38,128 bases of DNA from Arenimonas sp. (GTDB taxonomy: Bacteria > Pseudomonadota > Gammaproteobacteria > Xanthomonadales > Xanthomonadaceae): contig JAPLSJ010000074.1 in NCBI GenBank assembly GCA_026398695.1, positions 1 through 38,128 on the forward strand, in the 5' to 3' direction. Shown here one piece after another: positions 1-38,128 of the stretch. Made by a program: the position numbers and the translations under genes. The notes under the pieces are model-generated. The model ran no database searches, was not told the DNA's origin, and saw nothing but the letters and a program-made list of their open reading frames with translations. How positions within the stretch are numbered: the first letter of the stretch is position 1; each line of letters begins with the position of its first letter.

Positions 1-1119
1 GCGGCCCACCGCGTCGTCGGCCACGTGGCCGCTGACGTCGATGAAGAACGCGTACTGCCAGCGCCCGGCGTGCGAAGGCCGCGATTCGATGCGGTTCATG
101 CTGACGCCGTGGCGCGCGAACGGGCTGAGCACGTTGTAGAGCGCGCCCGGCTGGTCGCGCACGTACACCAGCAGCGAGGTGCGGTCGTGGCCGCTGGGCG
201 AGAACAGCTCGCGCCCCAGCACCAGGAAGCGGGTGGTGTTGTCCTGGCGGTCCTGGATCGGGCCCGCCACCACTTTCAGGCCGTAGACGTGCCCGGCGCT
301 TTCACCGGCGATGGCCGCGGCGTCGTCGGCCGTGCGGGCCCGGCGCGCGGCCTCGGCGTTGCTGGCCACCGCGATCTTCTCGGCCTTGGGCAGGTGCTGG
401 CGCAGCCAGGCCTTGCACTGGGCGAGCGACATCGGGTGCGAATAGACGCGCTCGATGTCCTCAAGACGGCCGGTGCGCGACATCAGGTGCTGGTGCACCG
501 ACAGCTCGACTTCGCCGCAGATCTTCAGCGGCGAGGTGAGGAACATGTCCAGGGTGGACTGGATGGTGCCCTGCCCCGAGTTCTCCACCGGTACCACGCC
601 GAAGTCGGCGTTGCCGGCCTCCACTTCCTGGAACACTTCCTCGATGCTGGCCAGCGGCAGGCCCTTGGCCGAATGGCCGAAGTGCTTGTGCAGCGCCTGC
701 TGCGAGAACGTGCCCTCGGGGCCGAGGTAACCGACCTTCAGCGGCTCCTGCTGGGCCAGGCAGGCGGACATGATTTCGCGGAACAGCCGCAGCAGCACTT
801 CGTCGCTGAGCGGGCCGTCGTTGCGGTCCAGCACCTGGCGCAGCACCTGCGACTCGCGTTCGGGGCGGTAGTAGTCCACCGCGGCCTTCAGCGGGCCCTT
901 GGCCTTGCCGACCTGCTGGGCCCAGCGCGCGCGCTCGGCGATCAGGGCCTGGATCCGCAGGTCGATGCCGTCGATGTGGCCGCGCACGTCCGACAGCAGC
1001 GGCGCGGCCTCGGCCTGGGGCTTGGCCTTGGCGGCTTTCGGCTTCGCGGGCTTCGAGGGCTTGGCGGGCTTGGCGTCAGCCTTGCCGGGTTTTGCAGCGG
1101 TTTTCTTCCGGGTGGCCAT
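1..1119 (-). CDS. pheA: Bifunctional chorismate mutase / prephenate dehydratase (P-protein), 3' end cut by window edge
   Basis: The 373 codons visible here encode the cytoplasmic enzyme that turns chorismate into prephenate and then phenylpyruvate for phenylalanine synthesis. After an unusual Lys/Ala/Pro-rich leader (residues 1-39) comes an AroQ-type chorismate mutase domain (about 40-125, with RIQALIAERARWAQQVGKAK). The prephenate dehydratase domain starts at GYLGPEGTFSQQA (about 130) and carries the TRF motif at 296-298. An ACT domain follows, with GALYNVL and ESRP at 345-348, the usual phenylalanine-binding element. Only the last few tens of residues should be missing. The ATG at 1119 lies 3 bp beyond the serC stop, so serC and pheA form one transcription unit, the usual order in gammaproteobacteria. 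The basic leader is not part of the family core; whether translation really begins at 1119 or at a later codon is the main uncertainty. Confidence 0.95.
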   Translation of the reverse strand, partial: MATRKKTAAKPGKADAKPAKPSKPAKPKAAKAKPQAEAAPLLSDVRGHIDGIDLRIQALIAERARWAQQVGKAKGPLKAAVDYYRPERESQVLRQVLDRNDGPLSDEVLLRLFREIMSACLAQQEPLKVGYLGPEGTFSQQALHKHFGHSAKGLPLASIEEVFQEVEAGNADFGVVPVENSGQGTIQSTLDMFLTSPLKICGEVELSVHQHLMSRTGRLEDIERVYSHPMSLAQCKAWLRQHLPKAEKIAVASNAEAARRARTADDAAAIAGESAGHVYGLKVVAGPIQDRQDNTTRFLVLGRELFSPSGHDRTSLLVYVRDQPGALYNVLSPFARHGVSMNRIESRPSHAGRWQYAFFIDVSGHVADDAVGR

Positions 1120-2275: not shown

Positions 2276-5200
2276 TCAGCCGACGATGCGCGCACTGCCC
2301 AGGAGTATTTGCTCGAAGTCGTTCGGCGCCACCGGTTTCGAGAACAGGTAGCCCTGGCCATAGCGGCAGCCCAGGGCCTTGAGCAGGGCCTGCTGCCCCT
2401 CGGTCTCGATGCCTTCGGCGGTCAGCGCCAGGGACAGTTCGTCGGCGAAGGCAGTGATGGTGCGGACGATGGCGCGATGGCGCGGGTTGGTCTCGATGTC
2501 GCGGATGAACACCTGGTCGATCTTGAGCGCGTCGAACGGCGAGGCCGCGAACGATTCCAGCGACGAATAGCCGGTGCCGAAATCGTCCACCACCAGGCCC
2601 ACGCCCAGCGCCTTGAGCGACAGCAGCCGCTGCTCGGCCTGGCCGCGCCCGGCGCGGAAGGCGGTTTCGGTGACCTCCAGCCGCAGGCTGGCCGGCGGCA
2701 GCCGGTGCGCCTGCAGCAGGCTGAACACTTCCTCGACGATCTCCGGGGAAAGCATCTGGCGCTCGTCCACGTTGACGTTCATCGTCAGGCCGGCATGCTC
2801 CGGGAAGCGCGCGCGCCAATCCGCCAACTGGCGGCAGGCCTCGCGCAGGCCCCAGGCGTCCATGTCGACGATCAGGCCGGTTTCCTCGGCCACCGCCAGG
2901 AACGCCGACGGCGGCAGCAGGCCGCGCACCGGATGCTGCCAGCGCACCAGCGCCTCGGCGCCCACCAGCCGGCCGGTGGCCAGTTCGATGATGGGCTGGT
3001 AGTGCAGCCTGAATTCGAGGCGCTCCACCGCCAGCCGGAAATCGGTTTCCAGCTGCAGGCGGCTCAGCGCCTCCTGGTGCATCGCCTCGTCGAAGATCAC
3101 GAAGCCGGACTTGCCCGCGGCCTTGGCCCGGTACATGGCCGTGTCGGCGTCGCGCAGCACCTGGTCGGGTGATTCGTATTCGGTGCTGCCGATCACGATG
3201 CCCAGGCTGGCGGCGGAGAACACCTGCTGGCCGGCGATCTCGAACGGCTGCTCGAACAGCTTGAGCACGCGGCGCGCGATGTCCACCGCACGGTCGTGGC
3301 CGCAGTCGCCGTCGGGCAGCAGGGTGAATTCGTCGCCGCCGTAGCGGGCGATCATCACGTGCTCGAGCAGGCTGTCCTCCAGGCGCCGCGCGATCTCCAC
3401 CAGCAGGCGGTCGCCGGCGCCGTGGCCCAGGCTGTCGTTCACCCACTTGAAGCCGTCCAGGTCCAGGAACAGCACGGCATAGCGGCGCCGGCGCCGGTCC
3501 TGCCCCTGCGCCGACTGCACCATCGCCTCGGCCAGCCGCTGGTTGAACAGCATGCGGTTGGGCAGGCCGGTCAGCGGGTCGTGCGTGGCGTGGAAGCGAA
3601 GCCGCTCCTCGGCCTCGCGCTGGCGCGTGATGTCGAGCACGGTGCCGGTCATGTGCTCCACGCCGTCCAGCGCCACCGGCCCGATGCTTACCCGCACGTG
3701 CACCCGGCGGCCGTCCTTGTGCAGCAGGCAGGATTCGAAATCCGGCGCCACGTGGAGGCCGGCCAGGCGGTCACGGTCCCGCTTCTCGGACACCAGCAGC
3801 GCGTCGGGCGCCATGATGTCCTTGAAGCTCACGCCCACCAGCCCGGTGTCGTCCCGGCCCAGCATCGCCGCGAACGCGTGGTTGGCGTAGGTGTACTGGT
3901 CGCCCTGCATGATGAAGACACCCACCTGGCTGTGCTCGACCAGGGTGCGGTACTTGCTTTCCGAGCGCAGCAGCGCCAGCTGCATGTCGTGGCGCTGGTC
4001 GATGTCGAGCACCGAGCCGGTGAAATGCATCGGCTGCCCGTTCTCGTCGCGGATCAGCAGCACGCTGGCGCTGACCCACTTCAGGCGCCCGTCGCGGGTG
4101 TGCACCTGGGTTTCGTAGTGGTTGAAGGCGCCGTCGCGCAGGGCCAGCTCCACCAGCTTCGCCCGCTCGTCGATATTGGCGTACACCTGGTTCATCCCGG
4201 TGACCGCCGCCTTGAGGTCCTCGGCGCTGTCGTAACCCAGGATGCCGGCCAGCATCCGGTTGGCCTCCATCACCTTGCCGTCCAGCGACGTGCGGAACAG
4301 GCCGGCGGGCGAGTTTTCGAACAGCTCGCGGTAGCGGCGCTCGGCCTCGGCCACGTCGCGCTGCCGGCGCCGGTCCTCGGTGACGTCGCGCAGGGTCCCG
4401 GTGGAGGCGATGTCGCCCTGGTACTCCACGGCGTCGGCGCGCACCTCGCACAGGATGCGCGAACCGTCCTTGCGCCGCAGGTGGATCTCGTACACCTGCG
4501 GCTCGCGCGAACCCGCCTCGCGTTGCTCCCGCCGCCCGGCCTGGGCGCTGCGGTCGTCGTCGTCCACCAGCGCCATGTAAGGCGTGCCCAGCAGTTCGCC
4601 CGCGCCGTAGCCCAGGATCCTGGCCATGGCCTCGTTGGCGAAGATGACGGCGCCGCGCTGGATCAGGAACACGCCATCGCGGCTGTTTTCCACCAGCACC
4701 TGGTAGAGGGCCTTGGACTCGCCCAGCGCCTGCTCGGCCTCCACCTGGGCGGTGATGTCCACCAGCGAGCCCTCGAACACCAGGGCCTCGCCGTTGGCGT
4801 CGAGGATGCCACGGGCGTTCTGGCTGACCCAGATGATGCGCCCGTCGCGCCGGTAAACCCGCGCCCGTTCCCGCTCCAGCCGCCCGCCGTCGAGCAGTAC
4901 CGCGTTGGTCCGCGCGACATGTTCCGGGTCGGCATACAGGGCCGTGGAGCTGCGGCCCAGTTCGCTCAGCAGCTGCTGCGGCGAGTCGTAGCCCAGGATG
5001 CGCGCCATGGCCGGGTTCACGTTCAGGAATCCACCGCCGGGAAGGCTGCGGTAGATGCCTTCCGACGCCGCCAGGTAGAGGGAACGATAAAGCAGGTCGG
5101 TGCCCGGCTGCTTGGGCAGCTCCTCGCCCTCGGTCAGGAAGTGCACCAGGCAGAACAGCCGCGATTCGCCCTCCTCGTACACCAGTTCGACGCTGATGTG

Positions 5201-5509
5201 GCCATCGCGCTCCCGGCCGTCGGCGCAGACCACGGCCAAGGGCAATTGCGTCACCCGCTGGTCGGCACGCAGCAGGCTCCAGATGCGGGCACGAAACTCG
5301 GGGTCGGGCCACAGCCCCACTTCGATCGGCAGGCGGCCTATCACCTGGTCACGACGATAGCCGGTGCTACGCTCGAAGGCGGGATTGACGCCCAAGAACA
5401 CGCCGTCGCTGGCACGGAGCACAGCAACCACGCTTTCCGACGCTTCGAACGCGTCAACCAGGCGCATCCATTTCCCCGGTGGCTCCCTCTCTGGTTTGAG
5501 TATAGCCAT
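2276..5509 (-). CDS. Five-PAS, GGDEF and EAL domain cyclic-di-GMP signalling protein
   Basis: This protein of 1077 residues is predicted to sense signals through PAS domains and to make and/or degrade cyclic di-GMP. Five PAS-like repeats are visible at about 20-130, 140-255, 265-380, 390-505 and 515-630. Several have the N..ARILGY pattern and end in DIT/DVT before a linker. The GGDEF domain (640-805) has an intact RYGGDEF (GGDEF 724-728), but the position of the RxxD inhibitory site reads LEHV, so product inhibition is probably absent. The EAL domain (815-1065) keeps EALVRW, LRLEVTET, DDFGTGYSSL and TAEGIET, so it looks catalytically competent. There is no membrane segment or signal peptide, so it is probably cytosolic. 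I chose ATG 5509; ATG 5467, behind AGGGAG, is the alternative (1063 residues). The frame stays open further upstream but there overlaps msrP. It is divergent from msrP with only 39 bp between starts. Confidence 0.93.
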   Translation of the reverse strand: MAILKPEREPPGKWMRLVDAFEASESVVAVLRASDGVFLGVNPAFERSTGYRRDQVIGRLPIEVGLWPDPEFRARIWSLLRADQRVTQLPLAVVCADGRERDGHISVELVYEEGESRLFCLVHFLTEGEELPKQPGTDLLYRSLYLAASEGIYRSLPGGGFLNVNPAMARILGYDSPQQLLSELGRSSTALYADPEHVARTNAVLLDGGRLERERARVYRRDGRIIWVSQNARGILDANGEALVFEGSLVDITAQVEAEQALGESKALYQVLVENSRDGVFLIQRGAVIFANEAMARILGYGAGELLGTPYMALVDDDDRSAQAGRREQREAGSREPQVYEIHLRRKDGSRILCEVRADAVEYQGDIASTGTLRDVTEDRRRQRDVAEAERRYRELFENSPAGLFRTSLDGKVMEANRMLAGILGYDSAEDLKAAVTGMNQVYANIDERAKLVELALRDGAFNHYETQVHTRDGRLKWVSASVLLIRDENGQPMHFTGSVLDIDQRHDMQLALLRSESKYRTLVEHSQVGVFIMQGDQYTYANHAFAAMLGRDDTGLVGVSFKDIMAPDALLVSEKRDRDRLAGLHVAPDFESCLLHKDGRRVHVRVSIGPVALDGVEHMTGTVLDITRQREAEERLRFHATHDPLTGLPNRMLFNQRLAEAMVQSAQGQDRRRRRYAVLFLDLDGFKWVNDSLGHGAGDRLLVEIARRLEDSLLEHVMIARYGGDEFTLLPDGDCGHDRAVDIARRVLKLFEQPFEIAGQQVFSAASLGIVIGSTEYESPDQVLRDADTAMYRAKAAGKSGFVIFDEAMHQEALSRLQLETDFRLAVERLEFRLHYQPIIELATGRLVGAEALVRWQHPVRGLLPPSAFLAVAEETGLIVDMDAWGLREACRQLADWRARFPEHAGLTMNVNVDERQMLSPEIVEEVFSLLQAHRLPPASLRLEVTETAFRAGRGQAEQRLLSLKALGVGLVVDDFGTGYSSLESFAASPFDALKIDQVFIRDIETNPRHRAIVRTITAFADELSLALTAEGIETEGQQALLKALGCRYGQGYLFSKPVAPNDFEQILLGSARIVG

Positions 5510-5548
5510 CGAACCCGTCCCGAAAGGGGCGAAAACCGGAGCCACCCC

Positions 5549-6520
5549 TTGAACAACCCGATCCCGCAGGACATCCCCGCCTCCCAGATCACGCCCGAGG
5601 CCGTGTACCGGGCGCGAAGACAACTGATCGGCTTCGGCCTGGCCACGCCGCTGCTGGCCCTGGCCGGCTGCGCGGGTGCCGAGGAAACACCGCCCCCGGC
5701 GGCCGCGGCGGCAAAGCCCTCGGACTCGAAGGACGGTTTCCGGACCGCCGACGAGCCCACGCGATTCGAGGACGCCAGCCAGTACAACAACTTCTACGAG
5801 TTCGGAACCGGCAAGGACGATCCGGCCCGCAACGCCCACACCCTCAGGACGTCGCCGTGGTCGGTGGTGGTGGGCGGCGAAGCCGAGGTCACCGGCACCT
5901 TCGCGCTGGACGACTTCCTGAAGCCGCACGCGGCGCAGGACCGGATCTACCGACTGCGCTGCGTCGAGGGTTGGTCCATGGTCATCCCGTGGCAGGGAGT
6001 GTCGCTGGGCGACGTGCTGCGACGCTTCAAGCCCACCTCGCGCGCAAAATACGTGGCTTTCACCACCCTGGCCGATCGCGGCCAGATGCCAGGCATCCGT
6101 TTCCCGGCGCTGGACTGGCCCTACCGCGAGGGCCTGCGGATGGACGAAGCGATGAACCCGCTGACCCTGCTGGCCACGGGCATGTACGGCAAGCCGCTGC
6201 CGAACCAGAACGGAGCGCCGCTGCGCCTGGTGGTGCCGTGGAAGTACGGCTTCAAGAGCATCAAGTCCATCGTGCGCATCGATTTCACCGAGCAGATGCC
6301 GGTGACCAGCTGGAACCAGTCACAGCCCGAGGAATACGGCTTCTATTCGAACGTGAACCCGGACGTGGACCACCCGCGCTGGAGCCAGCGCACCGAGCGC
6401 CGCATCGCCGGCACGGCCAGCAAACTGTTCGCCGAACGCATCGCCACCCTGCCCTTCAACGGCTACGCGGCGCAGGTGGCATCGCTCTACAAGGGCATGG
6501 ACCTGCGCCGGTGGTTCTGA
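5549..6520 (+). CDS. msrP: Periplasmic methionine sulfoxide reductase catalytic subunit MsrP
   Basis: This is the molybdopterin-dependent subunit (323 residues; E. coli about 334) that repairs oxidised methionines in periplasmic proteins, taking electrons from MsrQ. The start is most likely TTG 5549, since no ATG fits: it gives an N-terminal region with twin arginines R23-R24 followed by a hydrophobic stretch ending LALAGC, consistent with Tat export. The molybdenum-ligand cysteine is C138 in LRCVEGWSMVIPWQG. Further family blocks are FTTLADRGQMPG, PYREGLRMDEAMNPL and VPWKYGFKSIKSIVRI, followed by TSWN. The Cys at 41 sits in a lipobox-like context, but a Tat cleavage site is more likely for this family. 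msrQ starts inside the last codons of this gene, so the two are translationally coupled. The start codon is the only weak point. Confidence 0.94.
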   Translation: MNNPIPQDIPASQITPEAVYRARRQLIGFGLATPLLALAGCAGAEETPPPAAAAAKPSDSKDGFRTADEPTRFEDASQYNNFYEFGTGKDDPARNAHTLRTSPWSVVVGGEAEVTGTFALDDFLKPHAAQDRIYRLRCVEGWSMVIPWQGVSLGDVLRRFKPTSRAKYVAFTTLADRGQMPGIRFPALDWPYREGLRMDEAMNPLTLLATGMYGKPLPNQNGAPLRLVVPWKYGFKSIKSIVRIDFTEQMPVTSWNQSQPEEYGFYSNVNPDVDHPRWSQRTERRIAGTASKLFAERIATLPFNGYAAQVASLYKGMDLRRWF

Positions 6521-31815: not shown

Positions 31816-34800
31816 ATGAAGCGTATGTTGATCAATGCCACGCAGGCCGAAGAGCTGCGCGTGGCGATCGTCGATGGCCAGAACCTTTACGACATCGACA
31901 TCGAGCAGCCCTCGAAGGAACAGAAGAAGTCCAACATCTACAAGGGCCGCATCGTGCGGCTGGAACCGTCCCTCGAGGCGGCCTTCGTGGAGTACGGCGG
32001 TGAACGCCACGGCTTCCTCCCGCTCAAGGAAATCTCCCGCGACTACTTCGTCCCCGGCGTCGACCCGAACAAGGCCGGCCTGAAGGAATACCTGCGCGAA
32101 GGCCAGGAAGTCGTGGTCCAGGTGGACAAGGAAGAGCGCGGCAACAAGGGCGCCGCCCTGACCACGTTCATTTCCCTGGCCGGCCGCTACATGGTGCTGA
32201 TGCCCAACTCGCCCACCGCCGGCGGCGTCTCGCGCCGCGTCGAGGGTGACGACCGCCAGGCCCTGAAAGAGGCCATGGACGCGCTGACCATCCCCGACGA
32301 CATGGGCGTGATCATCCGCACCGCCGGCGTGGGCCGCGCCGCCGACGAGCTGCAGTGGGACCTCGACTACCTGCTGCAGGTGTGGAAGTCGATCACCGAC
32401 GCCGCGCTTTCCAAGCCCTCGCCCTTCCTGATCTACCAGGAATCGCGCCTGATCATCCGCGCCCTGCGTGACTACCTGCGCGCCGACATCGGCGAGATCC
32501 TGGTGGACACCCAGGAGATGTACGACGAGTCGCGCGACTTCATGCAGTCGGTGATGCCGCAGAACCTGCGCAAGCTCAAGTTCTACGAAGACCCCACCCC
32601 GCTGTTCAACCGCTACCAGATCGAATCGCAGATCGAAGGCGCGTACGAGCGCCAGGTGCGCCTGCCCTCGGGCGGCAGCATCGTGGTGGACCAGACCGAA
32701 GCCCTCACCGCCATCGACGTGAACTCCTCGCGCGCCACCAAGGGCAGCGACATCGAGGAAACCGCGTTCAACACCAACCTGGAAGCCGCCGACGAAGTGG
32801 CCCGCCAGATGCGCCTGCGCGACCTGGGCGGCCTGGTGGTGATCGACTTCATCGACATGGGTTCGGGCAAGCACCAGCGCCTCGTTGAAGAGCGCCTGCA
32901 GAATGCCCTGAAGCAGGACCGCGCCCGCGTGCAGATCGGCCGCATCTCGCGCTTCGGCCTGCTGGAAATGAGCCGCCAGCGCCTGCGCCCGAGCCTGGGC
33001 GAGAGCAGCCAGATCATCTGCCCGCGCTGCGAAGGCCACGGCCGCATGCGCAGCGTGGAATCGCTGTCGCTGAGCATCCTGCGCCTGGCCGAAGAACACG
33101 CCATGAAGGAAAACACCGCGCAGGTGCTGGTGCAGGCCCCGCCGGAAATCGCCAATTACCTGCTGAACGAAAAGCGCCGCGCGCTGATCGAAATCGAACA
33201 GCGCCACGACGCGCCGATCATCATCGTGGCCGACGACCAGCTGGAAACCCCGCACTTCAACATCTCGCGCCTGCGCGAAAACGAAATCGCGGAAGAAGGC
33301 AGCAAGCCCAGCTACCACCGCACCACCCCGCGCAAGCTGGCGGTGCATTCGCTCACCAAGGCGCAGATCAACGTGCCCGACCTGCCGGCCGTCACCGCCG
33401 TGCGCCCGCCGAACCCGGCGCCGGTGCGCGAGGAAGTGGAAGTCGAAGCGCCGCCGCCGCCGGTGTTCTCCAACAAGGCGCCGGCGGCCAAGCCGGGCCT
33501 GTTCGCGCGCATCGCGGCGTTCTTCGCCGGCGAGCCGTCCACGGAAGCCGCGCCCGCGGCCGCCAAGACCGCGCGCCCCGAGCGTTCCGACCGCAACGGC
33601 CGCAGCGAAGGCGGCGGCAACCGTGACCGCGGCGGCCGTGGCCGCGACCGCGACCGTGGTTCGCGCAGCGGCGGCGGTGACCGCGGCGATCGCGGCCCGC
33701 GCCCGGAGCGTGGCGACAAGCCCGCGCAGCCGCCCCAGGCCGGCGGCAAGCCGCCGCAGGGCCAGCCGGCCCAGCAGCAGCAGGCCAAGGCCCCCAAGCC
33801 CGAGCGCACCGAAGACCAGAAGAAGCAGGACGAGCAGCGCCGCATTGAAGGCCAGCAGCGCCGCGAGGAAAACCTGAAGAAGGAAGCCGAGCGCCGCGAA
33901 CAGCAGCGCATCGAAAACCAGAAGCGCGAAGCCGAGCGCCGCGAAGCCCGCGCCGCCCGCCTGGCCGCGCAGGCCGCCGCCAGCGGCGGTGAACTGGTGG
34001 ACGGCGAGCTGCCGATGCCGGTGGCCGTGGACGAAGACGGCCAGGTGATCGAAGGCCTCGAAAACGCGGCACCCGGCACCGACGCGGCCAACGCCGCCGA
34101 AGGCACCGGCCGCCGTCGCCGCGGTCGTCGCGGTGGCCGCCGTCGTCGTCGCCCGGATGAAGCCGGTGGCGAGAACGGTGGCACCGAGGGCAACGAAGGC
34201 AACGGCGCCGACAACGACGCCGATTACGAAGACGACGAGTCCGAGACCGAAGGCAACGCCCCGCGCGCTGCCGCCCCGGCCACGGTGAGCGCCGCCGAGT
34301 CCGACTTCGACGACCTGGGCCCGGCCCCGGTGCGTGCGCCCCGCCCTGCCCCCGTCGCCGCGCCCGTCGCTGCGGTGCTGGCGCCGGTGGTCGCGCCCGT
34401 CGTGGTGCCCGTGGTTGCGCCGGCCCCGGTGGCGGCGCCTGTCGTCGCCCCGATGCCGATGTCCGTGCCGGCCGCCGCCGAAGTGGAAGCGCCCAGGCCC
34501 GCCCCGGCCTACGTCGCGCCGCTGCCGGTGTCGAGCCTGATCGAAGACCGCGCCGTCGTGGCCCCGGCCGCGCCTGCGCCCGTCGCGCCGGTGGAAGTGG
34601 CGAAGGTGGAAGCTCCGGCCGTGCCGGCGTTCGTCGCGCCGATGGCCGAGGTGGAAGCCCCGGCCGCGCCGGCTTACATCGCGCCCGCCCCGGTGGCCGC
34701 GATGGAAGCCGCGCCGGTGGTGGAAGCCGTCGTGGCTCCGGTGGCCCCGGCGCCCGTGGTCGAAGCGCCGAAGCCCGCCGCCGTGGTCCAGGCCGAACCC

Positions 34801-35040
34801 GCGCCGTTCGCGCTGGCCACCCCGGCCTCGCCGCCGGTGCAGGCCAGCCTGATCCCGGAGCCCGCCGCGGCGCCCGCCCCGGCCCCGGCCGCCCCGGTGA
34901 ACCCGTTCCTGCGCACGCAGCCGGCGATCTTCGAGGCCCCGAAGGCCGCCGAGCCCACGCCGCCGGCGCCCGCGCCTTCGGCACCGGACTGGGTGCTGGA
35001 AGACGAAGGTGAACCGCCGCAGGCGGACAAGCCGAACTAA
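31816..35040 (+). CDS. rne: Ribonuclease E
   Basis: This 1074-residue endoribonuclease of the RNA degradosome cuts mRNA and processes 9S rRNA and tRNA. The catalytic half (1-about 510) starts MKRMLINATQAEELRVAIVD and has an S1 domain, catalytic D301 (ALTAIDVNSSRA) and D344 (LVVIDFIDMG), and the zinc link C402-P-R-C405. These equal E. coli D303, D346, C404 and C407. The C-terminal half is a disordered scaffold: a short amphipathic segment GLFARIAAFFAG (561-572) that could touch the membrane, an Arg/Gly/Asp-rich RNA-binding zone (about 585-640), a charged Gln/Glu/Arg coiled coil (about 660-730), an Arg cluster GRRRRGRRGGRRRRRPDE, and a 200-residue Ala/Pro/Val-rich tail ending in acid residues. 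Partner-binding sites cannot be assigned by eye. Confidence 0.96.
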   Translation: MKRMLINATQAEELRVAIVDGQNLYDIDIEQPSKEQKKSNIYKGRIVRLEPSLEAAFVEYGGERHGFLPLKEISRDYFVPGVDPNKAGLKEYLREGQEVVVQVDKEERGNKGAALTTFISLAGRYMVLMPNSPTAGGVSRRVEGDDRQALKEAMDALTIPDDMGVIIRTAGVGRAADELQWDLDYLLQVWKSITDAALSKPSPFLIYQESRLIIRALRDYLRADIGEILVDTQEMYDESRDFMQSVMPQNLRKLKFYEDPTPLFNRYQIESQIEGAYERQVRLPSGGSIVVDQTEALTAIDVNSSRATKGSDIEETAFNTNLEAADEVARQMRLRDLGGLVVIDFIDMGSGKHQRLVEERLQNALKQDRARVQIGRISRFGLLEMSRQRLRPSLGESSQIICPRCEGHGRMRSVESLSLSILRLAEEHAMKENTAQVLVQAPPEIANYLLNEKRRALIEIEQRHDAPIIIVADDQLETPHFNISRLRENEIAEEGSKPSYHRTTPRKLAVHSLTKAQINVPDLPAVTAVRPPNPAPVREEVEVEAPPPPVFSNKAPAAKPGLFARIAAFFAGEPSTEAAPAAAKTARPERSDRNGRSEGGGNRDRGGRGRDRDRGSRSGGGDRGDRGPRPERGDKPAQPPQAGGKPPQGQPAQQQQAKAPKPERTEDQKKQDEQRRIEGQQRREENLKKEAERREQQRIENQKREAERREARAARLAAQAAASGGELVDGELPMPVAVDEDGQVIEGLENAAPGTDAANAAEGTGRRRRGRRGGRRRRRPDEAGGENGGTEGNEGNGADNDADYEDDESETEGNAPRAAAPATVSAAESDFDDLGPAPVRAPRPAPVAAPVAAVLAPVVAPVVVPVVAPAPVAAPVVAPMPMSVPAAAEVEAPRPAPAYVAPLPVSSLIEDRAVVAPAAPAPVAPVEVAKVEAPAVPAFVAPMAEVEAPAAPAYIAPAPVAAMEAAPVVEAVVAPVAPAPVVEAPKPAAVVQAEPAPFALATPASPPVQASLIPEPAAAPAPAPAAPVNPFLRTQPAIFEAPKAAEPTPPAPAPSAPDWVLEDEGEPPQADKPN

Positions 35041-35043
35041 AAG

Positions 35044-35067
35044 AAAGGGCGCCGAAAGGCGCCCTTT
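35044..35067. terminator. Terminator of rne, also usable by the response regulator gene
   Basis: AAAGGGCGCC and GGCGCCCTTT form a 10-bp stem with a GAAA tetraloop, followed by further T residues and preceded by A residues. Confidence 0.92.
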
Positions 35068-35092
35068 TTCTTTGCCTTGCGGCGCGTCACGA

Positions 35093-35737
35093 TCAGATGG
35101 CGTAGGCCGGATCAGAAACGCCGTGCTGCCCAGCCAATCGCGCGAGCGCCACCGTGTCCTTGATGCCAAGCTTTTCGTAAAGACGATACTTGTGTGTCGC
35201 GACGGTCTTGCCACTCAGGCTCAGGCGCCGGCCGATCTCCTCCATGCGCAGGCCCTGGCAAAGCATCCGGGCCACCTCAAGCTCACGGGGCGACAGTGCG
35301 TCGAACGGCGAGTCATCGCCACACAGCCGAGACAGCGCCATGCGCTGCGCAACCTGGCTGGCCAGGTAACGCCGACCTCGCGCCACTTCCCGGACGGCGC
35401 GTATCAACTCGGCCGCATCACAGCCTTTTCCGAGGTATCCGCTGGCGCCGGCTTCGATCAGGCGACGTGGCATCGGCCCCTCCTCCTGCACCGACACGAT
35501 CAGCACGAACGTGCCCAGGTCACTGCGGACGATGCGCTCGGTGATGTCCAATCCGCTGATGCCCGGGAGGTGCAGGTCGCAGATGACCACCTGCGGTTTG
35601 AGGCGCCGGATCATCGGCAAACCTTCCTCGCCGCTTCCCGCTTCGCCGACGATCTCGAATTCCTTTTCCTGCCCCAGGATGAGGCGAAAGCCGGTGCGCA
35701 CCAGCGCGTGGTCGTCCAACAGGAACACTCGGATCAT
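35093..35737 (-). CDS. GacA/UvrY-like LuxR-type response regulator
   Basis: The protein has 214 residues. The receiver domain has acidic D8-D9, phosphoacceptor D54 (VVICDLHLPGISGLD) and the GYLGKG lysine. The LuxR-type helix-turn-helix is SPFDALSPRELEVARMLCQGLRMEEIGRRLSLSGKTVATHKYRLYEKLGI. The linker SPFDALS-RELE and overall length closely match GacA/UvrY, which switches on small RNAs that titrate CsrA/RsmA. Usually uvrC follows this gene; here it stands alone, with a terminator behind it, so orthology is likely by sequence but not by position. GGGGAGAG precedes its ATG. No sensor kinase is in the window. Confidence 0.88.
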   Translation of the reverse strand: MIRVFLLDDHALVRTGFRLILGQEKEFEIVGEAGSGEEGLPMIRRLKPQVVICDLHLPGISGLDITERIVRSDLGTFVLIVSVQEEGPMPRRLIEAGASGYLGKGCDAAELIRAVREVARGRRYLASQVAQRMALSRLCGDDSPFDALSPRELEVARMLCQGLRMEEIGRRLSLSGKTVATHKYRLYEKLGIKDTVALARLAGQHGVSDPAYAI

Positions 35738-35960
35738 TGCGCTCTCCCCAGGGCAGCAGGCTCCAACCTATCGGAAGCGGCCGCCGGGCGATGCCACGAC
35801 GCTCCTAATCAAAGGTAGGAAATACGCCCTGCCTTCAGCTTCGATCCCACCATAGGCGAGAACAACAAAACACGACGCGAGCGGGCGAAGTTTGACCCGA
35901 AACGCTAACAGCGACAGCGCGCTCGATGCGCCCGTGCGCCGCTATGCTCGCGGCATCGCG

Positions 35961-36929
35961 ATGAGAACAGGCGACCACGACGTGCGATTACGAGACCGCG
36001 CCATCCTGCTGGTCCAGTCAATGATGCTGCCGTTGTTGGGCGTCGGCTTGCTGGTGTCGTTCGCGATGGGAACGGTGATGCTTTCGGCCAATGACCGAGC
36101 CATCCTCTGGGCCGAAGGCACGACCGCGCAGCTCGCTGTGATGCAGGACCGGGTCGCCGCCAACCCGTGGTTCAAGCACGGCCGCAGCCGGCCCGCGACC
36201 GCCAGCAACCCCCTGCCGGCAGAATGTGGCGCCGGCGCGCGGGAGTTCTCGTTCGCGTCCCTCGGCGAAGTGGAGGGACAAGCCGCGCGCGAGATCCTGG
36301 AAATGATCGCCGCGGAAGCCGGCGCGCGCGTCTGCCTGTCCAACATCTTCATGATCAACGAACTGCCGGACCGCGACACGCAGAGCTGGAGCCAACTGGC
36401 TGCGTCTGCGGTGCTTGGCACTTCGATGATTCCCTGCGCGGCGGTGCTGTTCGTCTATTTCGCCTTTTCCAACAGGCTTCGCCTGGGCACATGGCTTGGC
36501 GACGACGGCCGGATAGCCCGCTCACTTTCCTGGGGCCTGGGCTCCGGCCTCTTCGCATCCGTGGTCGTGGCGTTGGCAACCCTGCTGGGGCCGACCTACA
36601 ACGACGATCCTCAGGCGACCGCGATGACGGTTGGCAACGTCGGCTACAGCCTTGCCCTGGCGCTGGTGCTGGTCATTCCCGTGATCGAAGAAGTGGCGTT
36701 CCGTGGCTGGATGATGCCGTTGGCGGAGCGTGGTCTCGGCACCATTGCATCCGCCGTGGCGTCATCGGCGCTGTACTCGGCAGCCAGTCTCCCGGCGGAC
36801 GCGTGGAGTGCTGCGGGCTATTTCTGCCTCGGGCTCACTTACGCAATGGTGTACCTGCGCACACGGTCGCTGTTGGCCTGCATCGTCGCGAACGTAACCG
36901 TCAGCGTGTCGTCGTTCTGGCTGGCGTGA
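35961..36929 (+). CDS. CPBP-family (Abi/CAAX-protease-like) membrane protein with incomplete active site
   Basis: The protein has 322 residues. An N-terminal helix (about 14-42) is followed by a periplasmic-looking region (43-140) with two cysteines, then five or six more helices. The CPBP first motif is intact: E243-E244-x-x-x-R248 in PVIEEVAFRGWMMPLAERG. The second motif normally has F-x-x-x-H but reads ALYSAASL, and the third H-x-x-x-N reads C307-I-V-A-N311, so both metal-binding histidines are missing. Proteolysis is therefore doubtful. The start is unsure: ATG 35961 has no clear ribosome site, and a TTG at 35892 would add 23 residues. It sits between a response regulator and an island boundary, and is less GC-extreme than rne. 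Bacterial CPBP proteins include bacteriocin-immunity proteins; no bacteriocin gene is visible. Confidence 0.75.
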   Translation: MRTGDHDVRLRDRAILLVQSMMLPLLGVGLLVSFAMGTVMLSANDRAILWAEGTTAQLAVMQDRVAANPWFKHGRSRPATASNPLPAECGAGAREFSFASLGEVEGQAAREILEMIAAEAGARVCLSNIFMINELPDRDTQSWSQLAASAVLGTSMIPCAAVLFVYFAFSNRLRLGTWLGDDGRIARSLSWGLGSGLFASVVVALATLLGPTYNDDPQATAMTVGNVGYSLALALVLVIPVIEEVAFRGWMMPLAERGLGTIASAVASSALYSAASLPADAWSAAGYFCLGLTYAMVYLRTRSLLACIVANVTVSVSSFWLA

Positions 36930-37130
36930 TCGGGCGCGAGGTTTGTCGCCGAAACTGGCGGAGAGAGTGTCCTCACAACACAAATTCAAATATTTACCAG
37001 CTGGTCCAAGCACCCTCTATTTTTATCAATCTTTTTAGGGTCTTGGAGAAAACAAAATACAAATTAATTGCTAGCAGTTCACCGCCAGCCGCCCTATCAT
37101 GTGGGGAACAATGATGGGAACAGCTGAGCC
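36930..37130. other. AT-richer intergenic boundary before the integrase
   Basis: Base composition drops clearly after about 36965 compared with the rest of the window (for example TTTTTATCAATC and AAACAAAATACAAATTAATT). I see no gene. Short direct repeats of GGGAACA occur at 37104-37122, upstream of the integrase start, and could be arm-type integrase sites. A candidate att core lies at 36956-36969. Confidence 0.55.
36956..36969. other. Candidate attachment-site core (tRNA-Ser 3' end remnant)
   Basis: TGGCGGAGAGAGTG is the reverse complement of CACTCTCTCCGCCA, which has the form of a bacterial tRNA-Ser 3' end including CCA. The adjacent bases do not continue as a T-arm, so only the terminal segment is present. 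It lies exactly where composition changes and 162 bp before a tyrosine integrase of the type that targets tRNA 3' ends. This fits one end of an integrated element; the full tRNA gene should be at the other end, outside the window. Confidence 0.5.
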
Positions 37131-38128
37131 ATGAAGCTAACCGCCATCGCAATCAAGAACGCGAAACCGGGCCGCCACGGCGATGGGAACAACTTATATC
37201 TACTGGTCAAGCGCGATGGCCGCAAGTCTTGGGTGTTCCGGTATCGAGACCGTCTGACCCAAAAGACCCGGGACAAGGGCCTCGGCCCCCTTAGGGACGT
37301 CTCACTCGCGTCAGCGAGGGAAAAAGCAAGGGAGTACAGAGCAGCACTTGCCAGCGGCAAGGACCCAATCGAACTGGAACGCACTGCGCTTCACGCCGCC
37401 CGCAGCCAGTTGGCAAAGCAAGTCACTTTCGACCAATGCGCTAGCCAGTGCATCGCCGCCATCCAACACGAGTGGAAGAACTCAAAGCACAAAGCCCAAT
37501 GGACATCAACGATAACAACGCATTGCCGCCTCATTGGTCCATTACCCGTATCGGAAATTGACGCAGACCTCGTCCATCGCGTTCTGGAACCAATCTGGCT
37601 GAAGCGCACCGAGACCGCATCAAGAGTCCGGAGTCGAATTGAACGAATTCTCGACTGGGCCGCCGGAAAAGGCTTTCGAACCGGGGACAACCCGGCAAGC
37701 TGGAAGGGAAGTCTGAAGAGCCTGCTCGCATCCCCAGCGAAGATTAAGAAAGTCAAACATAGACCCGCCCTACCCCACGCGGACGTGGTCGGTTTTATGG
37801 CTGAACTTCGCCTCCGGAACGATATCTCCTCCGCGGCCCTGCAACTGCAAATTCTGACCGCCACTAGGCCAAGTGAAGCAACGGAAGCAAAGTGGCAGGA
37901 GTTTGACTTCGCGCGTACGCTCTGGACCATCCCCAAAGAGAGGATGAAAAGCAACAGACCTCATGCGGTACCGCTGTCCAAAGAAGCCGTCTCGCTTCTC
38001 CGCTCGATTCCTTCGGGCGTTACTGAGTGCGTATTTGTTGGCCCAAAGGGGAAGCCAATTACCACCGCTGCCGTTTTAAAGACAGTTCACGCGATTCGCC
38101 CGAATTATACGAGCCACGGTTTCCGCTC
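37131..38128 (+). CDS. P4-type tyrosine recombinase / integrase, cut by window edge
   Basis: The visible 332 residues (family about 400) catalyse site-specific integration and excision of a genomic island. The N-terminal arm-binding domain (DUF4102 type) reads KLTAIAIKNAKPGRHGDGNN, then LYLLVKRDGRKSWVFRYRD and DVSLASAREKAREYRAALASGKDP. A core-binding SAM-like domain follows at 95-200. In the catalytic domain R246 is in ILTATRPSEATEAKWQEFDF, followed by TIPKERMKSNRPHAVPLS. The His-x-x-Arg box is H329-R332 (SHGFR) at the very edge; the tyrosine nucleophile lies beyond. Codon use is visibly less GC-biased than in the core genes (GCA, CGA, AAA, ATA codons), a sign of transfer. The start ATG is preceded by GAACAGCTGAGCC without a strong ribosome site. 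Confidence 0.93.
   Translation, partial: MKLTAIAIKNAKPGRHGDGNNLYLLVKRDGRKSWVFRYRDRLTQKTRDKGLGPLRDVSLASAREKAREYRAALASGKDPIELERTALHAARSQLAKQVTFDQCASQCIAAIQHEWKNSKHKAQWTSTITTHCRLIGPLPVSEIDADLVHRVLEPIWLKRTETASRVRSRIERILDWAAGKGFRTGDNPASWKGSLKSLLASPAKIKKVKHRPALPHADVVGFMAELRLRNDISSAALQLQILTATRPSEATEAKWQEFDFARTLWTIPKERMKSNRPHAVPLSKEAVSLLRSIPSGVTECVFVGPKGKPITTAAVLKTVHAIRPNYTSHGFR

Follow-up and report, generated by a model that had tools for sequence, protein, structure and literature searches.

The window, that is, the whole stretch of DNA analysed here (38,128 nucleotides), is the entire contig C22 of an Arenimonas sp. assembly that comprises 2,759,423 bases in 137 contigs and is 89% complete. At its right end the chromosomal genes give way to a tyrosine integrase gene that is interrupted by the contig end, and the following features were assigned there:

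35976..36926, + strand: Rce1/CAAX-type membrane protease gene (Pfam PF02517, 2.5e-15), the final chromosomal gene before the island
36956..36969, - strand: displaced 3' fragment of tRNA-Ser(UGA), its final 14 nt including CCA, forming the att core (exact match to the tRNA 3' end of relatives, on the same side of the CAAX gene)
36956..36962, no strand: presumed core-type half-site TGGCGGA on the chromosomal side (from 48 aligned ends: TGGYGGA, 7 nt, mostly TCCGCC)
36963..36969, no strand: presumed 7-bp crossover (overlap) region GAGAGTG (fragment equal to the target tRNA in six of six complete elements, different between isoacceptors)
36970..36976, no strand: presumed half-site TCCTCAC on the element side (agrees with the inverted repeat TCCGCCA at 4 of 7 letters)
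37104..37122, + strand: tandem pair GGGAACA-N5-GGGAACA, presumed integrase arm-type sites (148 nt from the core, the geometry of relatives)
37131..38126, + strand: P4-type tyrosine integrase, truncated by the contig end after 332 N-terminal codons (Pfam, PHROG and alignment to complete relatives)

The sequence TGGCGGAGAGAGTG at 36956-36969 is present as a single copy in the window, and a second copy was sought across the 2.76-Mb assembly without success. It is an exact match to the complement of a tRNA-Ser 3' end, as the preliminary description had noted, and it occupies the native position of tRNA-Ser(UGA). A similarity search of the assembly with the 90-nt tRNA-Ser(UGA) yielded no whole gene among six matches, namely the CGA gene, the GGA gene, partial matches on the GCT gene, tRNA-Pro and C69 (29 nt), and the 14-mer itself. 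The response-regulator neighbour has a match in 27 of 27 genomes of the genus (own included), and one locus per genome was taken from 20 of the 26 others. ARAGORN located tRNA-Ser(UGA) in all 20 loci, the gene recognised in L084 being borne by an insert that splits the native one. A response-regulator homologue is on the same stretch as the tRNA in 19 of these loci, with the exception of L101, a short contig that was retrieved through the 14-mer alone. Twelve of the 19 (L082-L093) have a CAAX homologue between the response regulator and tRNA-Ser(UGA), and their tRNA is oriented like the window fragment; five of the 12 (L089-L093) are devoid of the exact 14-mer because their tRNA 3' end differs. 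The seven more distant loci (L094-L100) have tRNA-Ser(UGA) opposite to the window fragment and no detected CAAX homologue, indicating that the response-regulator/tRNA neighbourhood has been rearranged within the genus.

The nearest relatives in the genus, as judged by the response regulator, are G206 (97% identical) and G202 (96%). In both, an intact tRNA-Ser(UGA) follows the response-regulator and CAAX-protease genes known from the window, and a search of their fetched loci for homologues of the window integrase was negative at E 1e-4, so that they supply the empty-site comparison that the preliminary description had called for. It had also held that relatives keeping the 14-mer in place without any integrase would speak against an insertion; such relatives exist in the literal sense, but in them the 14-mer ends a whole tRNA gene, and because a whole tRNA gene with that end is the empty site, the insertion is not contradicted. 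The spacer from the CAAX gene to the tRNA is ~270 nt in G206 and ~890 nt in G202, compared with 27 nt from the CAAX gene to the fragment in the window, and the DNA similarity between the window and G206 extends to ~36933 and stops there. The difference in spacing, like the opposite tRNA orientation in the seven distant loci, counts against the insertion reading. At another locus of the genus, L088 (G128:C1:702000-721900), ~14 kb separate the CAAX gene from tRNA-Ser(UGA) and a homologue of the window integrase was not found, so this tRNA site may receive other insertions.

The integrase reading frame matches Arm-DNA-bind_3, Phage_int_M and Phage_integrase of Pfam, in that order, as well as a PHROG integrase family (2.4e-41) and solved domains (the 'CP4-like integrase' PDB 3jtz, plus 3ju0 and 2khv). 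CP4/P4-type integrases represented by these structures have the same three domains in the same order; the window protein differs from them in that its catalytic C-terminus is lost at the contig end and its target is tRNA-Ser. The first arginine and the HGFR motif are present, and the contig end at 38128 falls inside the frame right after HGFR, with the H...Y region of relatives falling past it. The nine nearest relatives are 49-56% identical and extend 60-77 residues further, H...Y region included. A family search returned a match at E <= 1e-40 in 47 of 395 genomes (own included), none of which is among the 20 genus-mates listed, and a class-wide search returned one at E <= 1e-60 in 20 of 369 (own included). 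Named relatives listed from the plasmids, genome_contigs, viral_contigs and phages collections are 22-47% identical, and none is closer than the family and class genomes.

The DNA into which the integrase reads is missing from the assembly. Contig C11 starts at the position matching base 4315 of a G206 contig on which the tRNA ends at 2924, and this one uninterrupted G206 contig aligns with both C22 and C11, the tRNA lying between them; what the assembly lacks between C22 and C11 is thus tRNA-Ser(UGA), ~1.4 kb of flank and the remainder of the island. GC falls from ~0.64 to 0.50 (36900-37199) and then reaches 0.55-0.59, and an Rfam scan of 33000-38128 gave no match at the gathering score. The main elements of the preliminary description, an abrupt GC fall, a P4-family integrase directed into the DNA past the window edge and the left boundary of a genomic island, are all borne out, the first by the GC values, the second by the three domains reading inward from the fragment, and the third by a fragment at the native tRNA locus, the inward integrase and the empty site in relatives. 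It is very probable that an integrative element in tRNA-Ser(UGA), whether a prophage, a satellite or an island, has its integrase-side end in the window; the kind of insertion, an ordinary tRNA-Ser island end, is well supported.

The position of the integrase beside the fragment was compared among relatives. Besides the window's own, the family and class searches listed 71 matches, of which 48 had their loci examined (29 of 50 and 19 of 21, respectively). A tRNA-Ser-type 3' fragment of the pattern TGGYGGAG lies 158-258 nt upstream of where the matched stretch begins in 47 of the 48 related integrases, and only upstream of L195 was a fragment of this type not found; the first fragment pattern covered 26 of the 29, the other three being variants that were read by eye and then by a looser pattern. 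The fragment in the window is 175 nt upstream of the integrase, within the range of the group. Over the 530,296 bp that were fetched, a similar 11-mer was counted 36 times when both strands are taken together, a figure that takes in the fragments and the tRNA genes themselves. The preliminary description regarded it as unusual that the integrase sits beside the remnant and not beside a whole tRNA gene; this is instead the rule among these integrases. ARAGORN detected no intact tRNA-Ser within the 29 loci, whose flanks reach at most 1.5 kb to either side; an upstream tRNA-Arg is present in two of them. Among the other 19, a tRNA-Arg is upstream of the integrase in L187, and L196 has an intact tRNA-Ser(GGA) at 151-241 (- strand), 1.3 kb upstream of the integrase on the fragment side, an arrangement that might be a tandem insertion.

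The far end of the element is visible in six of the nine nearest relatives (G098, G058, G248, G183, G329 and G068, not in G016, G119 and G178), and an intact tRNA-Ser is located at the far end in all six: UGA in G098 and G058, CGA in G248 and G183, and GGA in G329 and G068. Fragment and far-end tRNA share 14-15 nt in these complete elements, which measure 5.6-18.6 kb from core to tRNA. The fragment upstream of nearly every related integrase also bears on the idea that the 14-mer in the window resembles a tRNA end by chance and has no relation to the integrase. When 2 mismatches are allowed, 0.44 chance matches per window are expected, but the match is exact, unique in 2.76 Mb and located where relatives keep tRNA-Ser(UGA), and 16 of the 27 genus genomes (own included) contain its complement, all of which makes coincidence scarcely credible.

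The internal organization of the core was deduced from the 48 aligned ends (window included), whose positions 1-8 follow from the search pattern itself. All 48 have G at position 14 and 47 have C at position 16, positions 9-13 are variable, and positions 15-21 agree with the inverted repeat of the half-site in a mean of 4.9 of 7 letters (a figure with no shuffled control). We infer that the core would consist of a half-site, a 7-bp overlap and a second half-site; one half-site plus the overlap would therefore account for a match of exactly 14 nt. The integrases of G183 and G329 (L167 and L171) are 92.6% identical, yet their elements occupy Ser-CGA and Ser-GGA genes, respectively, and have different 7-nt overlaps, which suggests that elements of this group retarget by changing the overlap.

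The short GGGAACA repeats mentioned in the preliminary description are present near the boundary as a pair with a 12-bp period. Comparison of the window with the elements of its nine nearest relatives, which with it make up the near subgroup, revealed that the 19-nt pair starts 146-148 nt from the core start in all ten (SD 0.7), although the median identity of the core-to-pair spacer is 35%. From the end of the pair to the integrase start codon the distance in the same ten elements is 2-60 nt (SD 19), with 8 nt in the window. GGGAACA was considered as a ribosome-binding or leader motif and rejected, since in this subgroup its position tracks the core and not the start codon. Six of the six complete elements have a second pair, different in 1-4 of 19 letters, whose end is 52-54 nt short of the tRNA 3' end. 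These distal pairs were first spotted by eye, before a scan of the whole 20-kb locus (both strands, proximal 21-mer) in which the best other site ends 51-58 nt from the tRNA in all six; the distal site scores 15-19 of 21, with a margin of one letter in G248 (15 versus 14 for the next best), and the six pairs are not fully independent owing to the close relationship of G183 and G329. An element has the same repeat variant at its two ends, either GGGAACA or TGGGACA. Taken together, the repeats look like integrase arm sites, to which the enzyme would bind at both ends of the element.

Among the next 20 integrases (L125-L144) the pair distances are ~121 nt (n=2), 132-136 nt (n=6), 143 nt (n=1) and 157 nt (n=1), the distance in two loci without a first-pattern core being reckoned with the looser pattern too; the rest have no tandem pair or only unlikely ones. 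Because other distances occur beyond the near subgroup, core-to-arm distances are fixed within subgroups at best. In the window's own assembly the exact pair is found only at 37104, and four other sites have 1 mismatch. Sites with <=2 mismatches number 18 forward and 15 reverse as against 10 and 9 for the backwards control, and with so modest an excess no distal arm pair was singled out on the other contigs. Judging by title, we recognised no published description of this pair among works on GGGAACA and integrases or on arm-type sites of DUF4102 or P4-like integrases, and we do not claim that it is unpublished.

Two further readings are weighed by this geometry. The first is a decayed scar, left after deletion of all of the element but its integrase end. 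The contig does end inside the integrase, but its frame is open up to that end, the first arginine and HGFR motifs are kept, and the core-to-arm distance is within 2 nt of that of relatives; decay of this kind is thus quite unlikely. The second, the joining of foreign integrase DNA to a chromosomal contig by an assembly or binning artefact, might be invoked for so fragmented an assembly with the join near a contig end. It is very improbable, since one would not expect a misjoin to coincide with the att core of the native tRNA-Ser(UGA) or to reproduce the core-to-arm distance of nine other genomes within 2 nt.

We propose that the element was inserted at the junction of the T stem and acceptor stem of tRNA-Ser(UGA), that its integrase would bind the GGGAACA pairs as arm sites at either side of attP plus the 7-nt half-sites, that strand exchange would take place across the 7-bp overlap, and that the tRNA would be rebuilt at the far end, in the stretch absent from the assembly. 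Binding to the arm sites just before the start codon may also allow the integrase to repress its own gene. In the KplE1 study (PMC2951348), the integrase was shown to repress integrase genes that have a promoter overlapping the att region. The window resembles such KplE1/IntS-type autoregulated modules in having an arm-site recombination region directly before the integrase gene, and differs in that the integrase there adjoins the argW tRNA gene while the one in the window adjoins a displaced fragment. Self-repression is plausible because the arm pair ends so close to the start codon; its basis is this position, since a simple scan of 36900-37200 gave no sigma-70-type promoter.

Other known systems share parts of this design. 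Islander (PMC4383910), in the available portion of its text, describes tDNA islands and a junction (J) attP crossover subsite between the T and acceptor stems. Those islands have, like the window, a tyrosine integrase, a displaced 3' tRNA fragment and a crossover near the T/acceptor junction; here the far end and the rebuilt tRNA are absent from the assembly. A further difference is that the integrase here is beside the fragment and not beside the tRNA, the side on which integrases lie not being a subject of that portion of the Islander text. The attP of ICEMlSymR7A (PMC11963761) contains five arm-type motifs with the consensus TGKTGGTATC. It is similar to the window in having several arm-type integrase motifs in attP, upstream of intS in that case, and dissimilar in that the window has tandem GGGAACA pairs and not five TGKTGGTATC motifs.

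The cargo of relatives was surveyed through chosen reading frames only, in five of them (G098, G058, G183, G248 and G068, with G329 left out). The element of G098, in tRNA-Ser(UGA), encodes a resolvase, an HTH protein and a fusion protein homologous to AriAB (PADLOC E 3e-140; Pfam AAA_21 and DUF4435). That of G058, which likewise occupies tRNA-Ser(UGA), encodes a pentapeptide protein, a nucleotidyltransferase and proteins homologous to Hp2 and Hp3 of PADLOC. A Prim-Pol/AAA_25 protein was found in G183, AlpA, AAA_25 and SRAP proteins in G248, and an HTH protein in G068. Two relatives in the same tRNA type as the window therefore carry defence-gene homologues, of PARIS (G098) and of Hp2/Hp3 (G058), and in these two the remark of the preliminary description that such islands often bring defence systems is borne out. 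PARIS has been described from P4-like satellites (PMC9122126), and the G098 element likewise has its fused AriAB homologue beside a P4-type integrase; the likeness is that of G098 and not of the window's element, and the relatives are only putative satellites. The two tRNA-Ser(UGA) elements also have in common a 191-aa protein that is 73% identical between them (L160 7985-8557 and L162 10344-10874, both - strand). Its G098 copy had no Pfam, PADLOC or PHROG match, none of 52 candidate stretches was confirmed for it in viral contigs, and its predicted structure (mean pLDDT 50.7) was too low in confidence for a fold search. A THIHC motif, spotted by eye in this shared protein, might be an HUH-type nuclease motif.

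These gene contents and sizes bear indirectly on whether the element is a complete temperate prophage at the same tRNA site and not a small island or satellite. Integrases ~39-41% identical do occur in phage records, for example in Acidovorax phage Acica. The chosen frames of the five relatives, however, are defence, primase/ATPase, AlpA, resolvase and regulator genes with no virion genes among them, and the six complete relatives are only 5.6-18.6 kb long, which makes a prophage unlikely, if the least so of the alternatives considered here.

Beyond the single locus, the comparison suggests a broader proposal, on which we are evenly divided: that a group of elements spread over many families of the class shares one attP design, in which a half-site of tRNA-Ser is combined with a 7-bp overlap matched to the isoacceptor, with arm pairs in tandem whose distances are constant within each subgroup (~148 and ~53 nt in that of the window) and with an integrase on the fragment side, and that these elements retarget through the overlap and carry interchangeable defence genes, as the window's element would too. 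The comparison of relatives details how this group marks its own ends, and the end geometry helps to find both element boundaries, even in fragmented assemblies without the far end. Since the two nearest complete tRNA-Ser(UGA) elements carry different defence homologues, this tRNA is a good site at which to seek more.

A different kind of insertion is present in L084 (G208:C11) at 3155-6190, where the host tRNA-Ser(UGA) is split in the anticodon loop by a 2.9-kb insert. The split halves comprise nt 32-90 at 3155-3213 and nt 1-39 at 6152-6190, with an apparent 8-nt direct repeat. The genes of the insert comprise a ParA-like one, two small ones and a complete tRNA-Ser(UGA) of its own (5892-5981); an integrase was not recognised among them. 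A 175-aa protein of this locus was detected in a single one of the 395 family genomes and had no match among phage records. The insert resembles tRNA-dependent lysogeny, which has been shown for actinobacteriophages (PMC10865867).
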